A DNA stretch of 33,204 nt from Halieaceae bacterium. Lineage in GTDB: Bacteria; Pseudomonadota; Gammaproteobacteria; Pseudomonadales; Halieaceae. Both the position numbers and the translations under genes were made by a program. Numbering within the stretch: the stretch's first letter is position 1; each line of letters begins with the position of its first letter. The notes beneath the pieces are model-generated. The model saw only the letters and a list, made by a program, of their open reading frames with translations, made no database searches and was not told the origin of the DNA. Below, piece by piece: positions 4,527 through 10,540 of the stretch. Where the stretch lies: contig JANQGK010000154.1 of the NCBI GenBank assembly GCA_028277365.1, positions 1 to 33,204 on the forward strand, read 5' to 3'.

Positions 4527-4617
4527 GGAGAAGTGGCCGAGTGGTCGAAGGCGCTCCCCTGCTAAGGGAGTATACGTTAATAGCGTATCGAGGGTTCGAA
4601 TCCCTCCTTCTCCGCCA
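4527..4617 (+). tRNA. tRNA-Ser (GCT anticodon)
   Basis: GGAGAAGTGGCCGAGTGG...CTCCC-CTGCTAA-GGGAG...long variable arm...GGGTTCGAATCCCTCCTTCTCCGCCA; encoded CCA. Confidence 0.97.
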
Positions 4618-4620
4618 GTT

Positions 4621-4663
4621 AAACCAAGAAGCCCCCGCCCGAAAGGCGGGGGCTTCTTGGTTT
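4621..4663 (+). terminator. 19-bp perfect stem-loop directly after tRNA-Ser
   Basis: AAACCAAGAAGCCCCCGCC-CGAAA-GGCGGGGGCTTCTTGGTTT; flanking TT/AA extends pairing. Confidence 0.8.
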
Positions 4664-4671
4664 AAAAGGGG

Positions 4672-4698
4672 GGAGAAGGCGGATTTGATTCGAACCCT
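4672..4698 (-). repeat. inverted partial copy of the tRNA-Ser 3' end (T-arm plus acceptor strand)
   Basis: GGAGAAGG-CGGATTT-GATTCGAACCCT versus the reverse complement of the tRNA 3' end, TGGCGGAGAAGGAGGGATTCGAACCCT. Confidence 0.75.
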
Positions 4699-4699
4699 T

Positions 4700-4813
4700 G
4701 TTCGACAAAACGCGACCACAGGAGCGTTTTGGACGCCCGCAGCGCGCTCGCGCGCGAGGACGCCCCGAAGGGGTGATTGCAGCCCTTAGGCTGCAATCAT
4801 CAATCCCTCCTTC
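4700..4813 (+). other. tRNA-associated structured element, copy A, ending in a copy of the tRNA-Ser 3' sequence (AATCCCTCCTTC)
   Basis: Hairpins CAAAACGC/GCGTTTTG, GCGCG/CGCGC, CCCC/GGGG and TGATTGCAGCC/GGCTGCAATCA; homologous to copy B at 10166-10277. Confidence 0.8.
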
Positions 4814-4945
4814 AGGCGCCCCAGCGGGGCGCCCGCTACCGGACGAAAAATCACACTCTCCTTCATACGCCCCCAGCGGGGCGCCCGCTACCAGACGAAG
4901 AACCACCCCCTCCATCAGCCACCCCAAAGATCACTCTCTCACCAG
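4807..4945 (+). repeat. degenerate ~51-bp tandem repeat (about 2.5 copies), each starting CTCCTTC/CTCCATC
   Basis: Units begin near 4807, 4858 and 4910; the first two share CGCCCCnAGCGGGGCGCCCGCTACCnGACGAA. Confidence 0.7.
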
Positions 4946-9998: not shown

Positions 9999-10075
9999 GC
10001 GCCTGTAGCTCAGCTGGATAGAGTACCTGGCTACGAACGAGGCGGTCGCACGTTCGAATCGTGCCAGGCGCGCCA
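9999..10075 (+). tRNA. tRNA-Arg (ACG anticodon)
   Basis: GCGCCTG TA GCTC AGCTGGATA GAGT A CCTGG CTACGAA CGAGG CGGTC GCACG TTCGAAT CGTGC CAGGCGC GCCA; 77 nt. Confidence 0.95.
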
Positions 10076-10076
10076 T

Positions 10077-10120
10077 ATAAAAGAAAAGGCCCCCTCCTCG
10101 GAGGGGGCCTTTTCTTTTAT
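10077..10120 (+). terminator. 20-bp perfect stem-loop directly after tRNA-Arg
   Basis: ATAAAAGAAAAGGCCCCCTC-CTCG-GAGGGGGCCTTTTCTTTTAT. Confidence 0.85.
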
Positions 10121-10139
10121 GGGGTGTCCTCCGCGAGTG

Positions 10140-10168
10140 AACGTCGCGAAGCGACGCTTCGCAACGTT
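10140..10168 (+). repeat. inverted repeat preceding element copy B
   Basis: AACGT-C-GCGAAGC-GAC-GCTTCGC-A-ACGTT, one internal mismatch. Confidence 0.6.
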
Positions 10169-10277
10169 CGACAAACTGCGACGAATAGGAGCAGTTTGGA
10201 CGCCCGCAGCGCCAAAGGCGCGAGGACGCCCGGAGGGTCAGAACAGCCCAAAGGCTGTTCTGATCAATCGTGCCAGT
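10166..10277 (+). other. tRNA-associated structured element, copy B, ending in a copy of the tRNA-Arg 3' sequence (AATCGTGCCAG)
   Basis: Hairpins CAAACTGC/GCAGTTTG, GCGCC/GGCGC, CCC/GGG and TCAGAACAGCC/GGCTGTTCTGA; conserved GGACGCCCGCAGCGC...GCGCGAGGACGCCC and terminal ATCAATC shared with copy A. Confidence 0.8.
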
Positions 10278-10439
10278 CAACTCGGTCCCCAATCGTGCCA
10301 GTCAACTCGGTCCCCAATCGTGCCAGGCAACTCGGTCCCCAATCGTGCCAGGCAACTCTGCCCCCAATCGTGCCAGGCAACTCTGCCCCCAATCGTGCCA
10401 GGCAACTCGGTCTCCAATCGTGCCAGGCAACTCGACCCC
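10265..10439 (+). repeat. 7 x 25-bp tandem repeat carrying the tRNA-Arg 3'-end fragment
   Basis: Unit CAATCGTGCCAGGCAACTCGGTCCC; starts at 10265, 10290, 10315, 10340, 10365, 10390 and 10415; AATCGTGCCAGGC is identical to the tRNA-Arg T-arm/acceptor 3' strand. Confidence 0.95.
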
Positions 10440-10540
10440 CACCTTGCTCGGCAATTTCGAGCGCCCCATAATCGAGTGCGCGCGGTTTCAACGCTTTCTA
10501 ACCATCCTCTTACTACTATCAACACGCTGCGAGACAGCTC

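Follow-up and report, generated by a model that had tools for sequence, protein, structure and literature searches.

The tRNA-linked repeats (TLRs) of Escherichia coli K-12 were reportedly described by Egan and Landy in 1978 and by Rudd in 1999. E. coli K-12 contains 22 TLRs at ten loci, each recognised by 18-19 bp at its 3' end that repeat the 3' end of the preceding tRNA or rRNA. Although the class dates from 1978, no function is known for the members in tRNA operons, and an early claim of a stringent-response role for tyrT was later withdrawn (PMC8144298). The TLRs behind 5S rRNA (rrA, rrB and rrF) are produced by transcription through a terminator, and CsrA and Hfq bind to them (PMC8144298). 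The repeats of the E. coli tyrT operon are represented in Rfam by RtT RNA (RF00391), which covers several E. coli TLRs. RtT-like small RNAs of the Pasteurellaceae, Arrc20 and Arrc21, are structured RNAs adjoining tRNA genes, and their expression in A. pleuropneumoniae was detected by Northern blot (PMC4986893). The same tRNA 3' ends are also targeted and duplicated by tRNA-integrating genomic islands, which have an integrase of their own and measure at least about 25 kb.

We analysed a stretch of 33,204 nucleotides from a Halieaceae bacterium, denoted here as the window, in which short elements lie behind tRNA-Ser(gct) and tRNA-Arg(acg). These elements are best read as belonging to the TLR type, with the same parts, order and junction and partly the same loci, but with a diverged sequence. 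The new findings are the breadth of occurrence in Gammaproteobacteria, the inverted tRNA copy, of which we found no mention in the accounts of TLRs that we consulted, the junction at T-loop positions 58/59 and the covariation of the stems.

Two tRNA-linked elements in the window

A preliminary description of the window held that each element ends in the 3' end of its own tRNA, and both loci bear this out, the range 4527-4813 comprising tRNA, terminator, inverted copy, core and flank (Table 1). AATCCCTCCTTC occurs exactly twice in the window, at 4599 within tRNA-Ser and at 4802 on the 3' side of the element (chance expectation ~0.004), and AATCGTGCCAG occurs at 10057 in tRNA-Arg and seven times from 10266 (chance expectation ~0.016). 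Both elements start with GTTCGAC, at 4700 and 10166, and end in ...ATC|AATC. Each element has a core of ~95 bp and ends in the 3'-end copy of its own tRNA with the junction at T-loop 58/59. The neighbouring tRNA is thus partly present a second time, and the core separates position 58 from position 59 in the T-loop of this extra copy. The first core comprises HP1 (CAAAACGC/GCGTTTTG), a GC-rich hairpin, a CCCC-GAA-GGGG hairpin and HP3 (TGATTGCAGCC/GGCTGCAATCA). The tRNA-end copies in the window are partial, with 12 nt for tRNA-Ser and 11 nt for tRNA-Arg, and the sister copy behind tRNA-Arg(tct) in the same genome has the full 19 nt of the tRNA 3' end. The inverted copy, the terminator and tRNA-Ser form a single long imperfect palindrome (4596-4688), and a self-comparison of the tRNA-Ser locus gives a minus-strand match of 80% across some 92 bp. 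A second terminator was looked for 3' of the window elements and not found. The preliminary description had thus recovered the tRNA 3'-end copy and the boundaries; the inverted left flank and the partial extent of the copying had escaped it, and the TLR class had gone unrecognised.

Table 1. Positions of the features at the tRNA-Ser and tRNA-Arg loci of the window.
Feature	Position	Strand	Basis or remark
tRNA-Ser(gct), parent tRNA of first element	4527..4617	+	ARAGORN
T-loop GTTCGA of tRNA-Ser	4594-4599	+	Sequence; copied block begins at 4599/4600
Terminator-like palindromic hairpin in the gap between tRNA-Ser and element, AAACCAAGAAGCCCCCGCC / GGCGGGGGCTTCTTGGTTT	4618..4663	+	Inverted repeat I2
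Degenerate inverted copy of tRNA-Ser 3' half, GAAGGCGGATT..GATTCGAACCC	4664..4699	+	44-nt arms, 77% complementary
GTTCGA preceding first core, 5' part of T-loop (53-58)	4700..4705	+	Sequence
First element core	4706..4801	+	Covariance model R1 match 4692-4805, 112 bits; covariation
Direct copy of tRNA-Ser 3' end from A58/59, AATCCCTCCTTC	4802..4813	+	Diverged beyond
Two 52-bp direct repeats 3' of first element, CTCCTTC/CTCCATC remnant in each	4819..4922	+	Family D6
tRNA-Arg(acg), parent tRNA of second element	9999..10075	+	ARAGORN
Terminator-like hairpin, perfect 21-bp palindrome	10077..10120	+	I10
Degenerate inverted copy of tRNA-Arg and hairpin GAACGT..ACGTTC	10121..10165	+	Sequence, alignment
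GTTCGA preceding second core	10166..10171	+	Sequence
Second element core, hairpins as in first	10172..10265	+	Covariance model R1 match 10158-10269, 110 bits
Copy of tRNA-Arg 3' end, AATCGTGCCAG, followed by 25-bp tandem array	10266..10441	+	D1

The 25-bp units of the array at the tRNA-Arg locus (10265-10441) are coreless, and each begins with AATCGTGCCAG at the same T-loop boundary, which shows that this boundary recurs independently of the core.

The order csrA-tRNA-Ser-tRNA-Arg in the window is syntenic with alaS-csrA-serV-argVYZQ of E. coli, and the window ORFs upstream of csrA are presumably alaS and a lysC-type aspartokinase, judging from a reading of the sequence. Like the TLRs of E. 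coli, the elements lie on the same strand 3' of tRNA genes, with one to several per locus, and combine a tRNA 3'-end copy starting at A59 with a hairpin core containing CCC-GAA-GGG. On reading the E. coli loci directly, we found the tRNA copy joined at A59 in the repeats of tyrT/tyrV, argV/Z/Q, lysT/W/Y/Z and lysV/lysQ. A terminator followed by an inverted T-arm copy (GATTCGAACCTGC) is present at lysV and lysQ, and the csrA-serV-arg locus is common to both systems. The elements studied here differ in their diverged core, their often shortened tRNA-end copy and the tRNAs involved, and in the window a terminator separates the tRNA from the element. When covariance model R1, built from 21 copies, was run on 35 kb of E. 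coli tRNA loci, the top matches were the lysV and lysQ TLRs (E 4e-4 and 0.002); the other E. coli TLRs were at noise level, and E. coli TLRs scored 18 bits or less.

RtT RNA has the same order of parts, GGGTGAGAACC..GGTTCGA - hairpins - AATCCTTCCCCCACCACCA, and the same closed fold, but E. coli tyrT is without such a hairpin terminator before the repeat. Even with the E-value limit set at 1, the Rfam RtT model did not match the window, and on a tRNA-Ser array of a relative (L109) it scored 36.9 bits, just under the Rfam gathering score of 45; at gathering score, no Rfam family except tRNA was found in the window. The rrA, rrB and rrF RNAs are similar in their position behind a terminator, in being read-through-made and in having a 3' repeat of the upstream RNA, but they bind CsrA and Hfq, whereas the present elements show no GGA enrichment. 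Arrc20 and Arrc21 differ in that they were reported upstream of tRNA genes (PMC4986893), which resembles the T-loop-lodged arrangement described below.

We favour, with some reserve, the reading that the elements are divergent TLRs and probably RNA released from tRNA primary transcripts. The region would be transcribed along with the tRNA, in the window by read-through of the intervening terminator, and the core would fold into a multi-hairpin RNA that is closed by pairing between the inverted copy and the copy of the tRNA end. The tRNA 3'-processing enzymes could then recognise the tRNA-end copy and release a small RNA. The core may have spread among tRNA loci within lineages while recombination or conversion with the tRNA at each locus renewed its flanks, and the tandem arrays may have arisen by unequal exchange between tRNA ends. 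It should be noted that the tRNA matches of 12 and 11 nt in the window, compared with the 18-19 nt that define E. coli TLRs, count against this reading, as do the lack of an RtT match and of a second terminator in the window.

Occurrence, copied tRNA ends and possible spread of the core

Copies in the source genome (3.88 Mb, 383 contigs) were counted by blastn and covariance model searches, and blastn located further copies behind tRNA-Arg(tct), tRNA-Lys and tRNA-Val. A pattern search of named genomes returned Halieaceae MAGs and Candidatus Litorirhabdus singularis, with every real match adjoining a tRNA or tRNA remnant; the exact-pattern matches L045 and L048, from other phyla, were apparently chance matches in coding DNA. 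R1 matched 82 of 140 genomes of the family (Halieaceae); the order yielded 103 of 392 genomes and the class 26 of 369. These counts are lower bounds because the filters were strict.

The linkage to tRNA genes claimed for the window extended to the other copies, 143 of 186 lying behind an intact CCA-ended tRNA. The first copy was usually located 54-85 bp past the tRNA 3' end, and the parent tRNAs included Ser, Arg, Lys, Val, Phe, Leu, Met, Glu, Asp and Pro. Loci contained one to five tandem copies, with units of about 172-218 bp composed of tRNA end, terminator, inverted copy and core. Copies without an intact upstream tRNA might be taken as counter-examples; on inspection, most were behind tRNA 3' halves that were eroded or had been displaced by islands, were cut at contig ends or were lodged in a T-loop. 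L142/L143 (G342, G418), L059 and L068 had no clear local tRNA. The element arrays in L142 and L143 have the flank CTTCCGCCATGCGAAAGGC and extra hairpins in each unit, with no tRNA in the stretch examined.

The 3' flanks of the 186 copies, compared with the neighbouring tRNA as the preliminary description had proposed, tracked that tRNA. At 93 tRNA loci, the right flank had a mean score of 12.2 against its own tRNA and 5.4 against other tRNAs (p ~3e-16), and the own tRNA was the best match in 71% of them. Counted from position 59, the first five bases had ~90% identity or higher to the tRNA and the next three 0.83-0.89, and identity dropped to about one half in the acceptor part. In the first copies at these loci, the match ran to the tRNA 3' end in about a third and continued past it in a minority.

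The suggestion of a fixed T-loop position in a duplicated tRNA 3' end was borne out by L117 (Arg), L108 (Ser) and L166 (Val), where the element lies within the T-loop of a near-complete extra tRNA copy and in silico removal of the core yielded a recognisable tRNA; L124 and L127 are eroded examples. Genomic islands account for several loci whose upstream tRNA is not intact. In G131 (L221/L130), the intact tRNA-Val is found with an integrase at 750.7-751.7 kb, and the element follows a displaced tRNA 3' half at 776 kb; the same arrangement is found at tRNA-Ser in G056 (L222/L141). These ~25 kb integrase islands between tRNA and repeat, which leave attR-like tRNA 3' halves before the repeat, integrated at the tRNA that the element adjoins and moved the element ~25 kb away, displacing it rather than containing it. 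Duplications of tRNA 3' ends are not always integrase scars.

Core similarity was 0.673 across tRNA loci within one genome and, between genomes, 0.616 for the same tRNA and 0.605 for different tRNAs, figures that represent a tendency and no proof because the pairs are phylogenetically non-independent. Since the flanks follow tRNA identity and the core does not, the core resembles an insert whose flanks are renewed at each locus, in line with the earlier alternative of a module carrying the cognate tRNA 3' end. Comparison of occupied with unoccupied orthologous tRNA-Ser loci showed that those without a core (L188, L193, L194, L198, L199, L203, L206 and L208) were also without the inverted copy, which is therefore part of the module.

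An alternative is a mobile element that is non-autonomous, targets tRNA T-loops site-specifically through an integrase, Y1 transposase or other recombinase, and survives only in redundant tRNA copies. It would account for the precise 58/59 insertion and the near-complete tRNA copies with a core in the T-loop. The higher core similarity within a genome across tRNAs than between genomes at the same tRNA, the tandem arrays and the patchy occurrence at orthologous tRNA-Ser loci also fit such an element. We nevertheless consider it unlikely. The ~95 bp element neither encodes nor adjoins an integrase of its own, as the preliminary description had noted, the integrase islands being separate, and a search for a recombinase candidate found none. 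Searches for phage, plasmid and viral copies were also negative. Y1 transposase (PF01797) was present in 9 of 20 carrier genomes and 9 of 20 non-carrier genomes, and the complete genome G038, with 13 element copies, has none. Furthermore, at most loci the left and right flanks are both derived from the tRNA next to them, an outcome not expected of simple insertion. The hint of integrase-type insertion in the preliminary description was accordingly not supported: an integrase-type mini-element was rejected for the lack of a recombinase and of phage, plasmid or viral copies, and a REP/RAYT or IS200/IS605-derived hairpin element for the lack of Y1 association.

Several cores in the genus of the window (L003, L004, L018, L033 and L038) have an extra AGGAGGGCCTGCCCC..CGGGTACGCCC segment in the second hairpin region. 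This segment is common to tRNA-Lys, tRNA-Arg and tRNA-Val loci and appears to be a sign of exchange between copies.

Inverted copy, fold and possible roles

The left flank, from terminator to core, repeats the tRNA 3' half in inverted orientation, scoring 10.3 against the own tRNA, 6.7 against others and 5.8 against shuffled sequences (p ~3e-14). A frequent form is GGATGA-GAACCnnn...GG|TTCGA, in which the complement of the T-loop is often altered to GATGA-GAAC. The inverted copy of tRNA-Phe has CCACC, which complements the 5' strand of the T-stem (GGTGG) and is not a copy of the 3' strand (CCGCC). At the 54 loci where flank and tRNA have diverged, the inverted copy agrees with the tRNA in 46 and with the flank in two, which contradicts the closed fold as the sole reason for the inverted copy. 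L191 and L141 retain an inverted copy without mismatches as far as the acceptor end (GCTCTCCGCCA / TGGCGGAGAGC), which suggests that the palindrome arose recently or is being actively maintained.

Among 137 distinct sequences, 96.3% of stem cells were paired, and double changes were found in 634 stem cells compared with 146 in shuffles; the covariation signal was lost when partner columns were shifted by one to three. Of about 2,600 stem cells, 40 were G-U and 17 A-C. This excess points modestly to selection acting on the RNA strand, but because G-U pairs are rare there is also room for palindrome upkeep at the DNA level. A closed multibranch RNA fold was predicted for most units, E. coli tyrT included, and the predicted folds of L034 and of the tRNA-Arg unit in the window differ from the closed form. 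We favour the processed-RNA reading because of the structure, the covariation and the E. coli precedent; the agreement of the inverted copy with the tRNA counts against it, as the closed fold alone does not explain it.

A CsrA sponge of the CsrB/RsmZ type was suggested by the neighbouring csrA and by AGGA loops, AGGA occurring in the HP1 loop region of 72% of Halieaceae copies and 31% elsewhere. It was rejected because GGA motifs are not enriched (2.15 per element, 2.19 when shuffled).

The inverted copy could alternatively serve a cis-acting switch based on strand exchange, pairing in read-through RNA either with the tRNA 3' half, which would be spoiled, or with the downstream copy, which would free the tRNA, while the core sets the balance. 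The agreement with the tRNA at diverged loci speaks for such a switch, as do the retention of CCACC in the tRNA-Phe copy despite a wobble pair in the T-stem, the frequent GATGA-GAAC complement, and the preservation of the T-stem part of the copy at about 90% or more with decay beyond. However, the terminator precedes the inverted copy, which would therefore be usable by read-through RNA only; there is no known ligand or regulated state; and a recently made palindrome would show equal complementarity. Because the inverted strand complements the tRNA itself, we leave a tRNA-directed switch open, doubtful as it appears. Similarly doubtful is the wider conjecture that TLRs are tRNA-coupled RNA switches throughout Gammaproteobacteria, in which tRNA 3'-half antisense, T-stem decoy and structured core would jointly control functional tRNA from read-through transcripts.

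Improbable, in our view, is a neutral by-product in which template switching at the terminator palindrome left functionless inverted and direct duplications of tRNA 3' ends. This would fit the single palindrome of tRNA end, terminator and inverted copy, which in L191 and L141 has no mismatch as far as the acceptor end, and the coreless 25-bp repeats that begin at the same boundary, but fails to explain a conserved, covarying core at the same position across tRNA classes and many families.

The covariance model, junction, inverted copy, covariation and distribution together make TLR function and movement between tRNAs testable. The class may also include an orphan small RNA: the Aggregatibacter sRNA 22 family (AaHKsRNA22, RF02902) gave weak matches to the cores at 513-618, 731-836 and 949-1054 of L124 (minus strand), with a score of 35.5 bits against a cut-off of 39.8, and it possibly belongs with the RtT-like small RNAs of the Pasteurellaceae.
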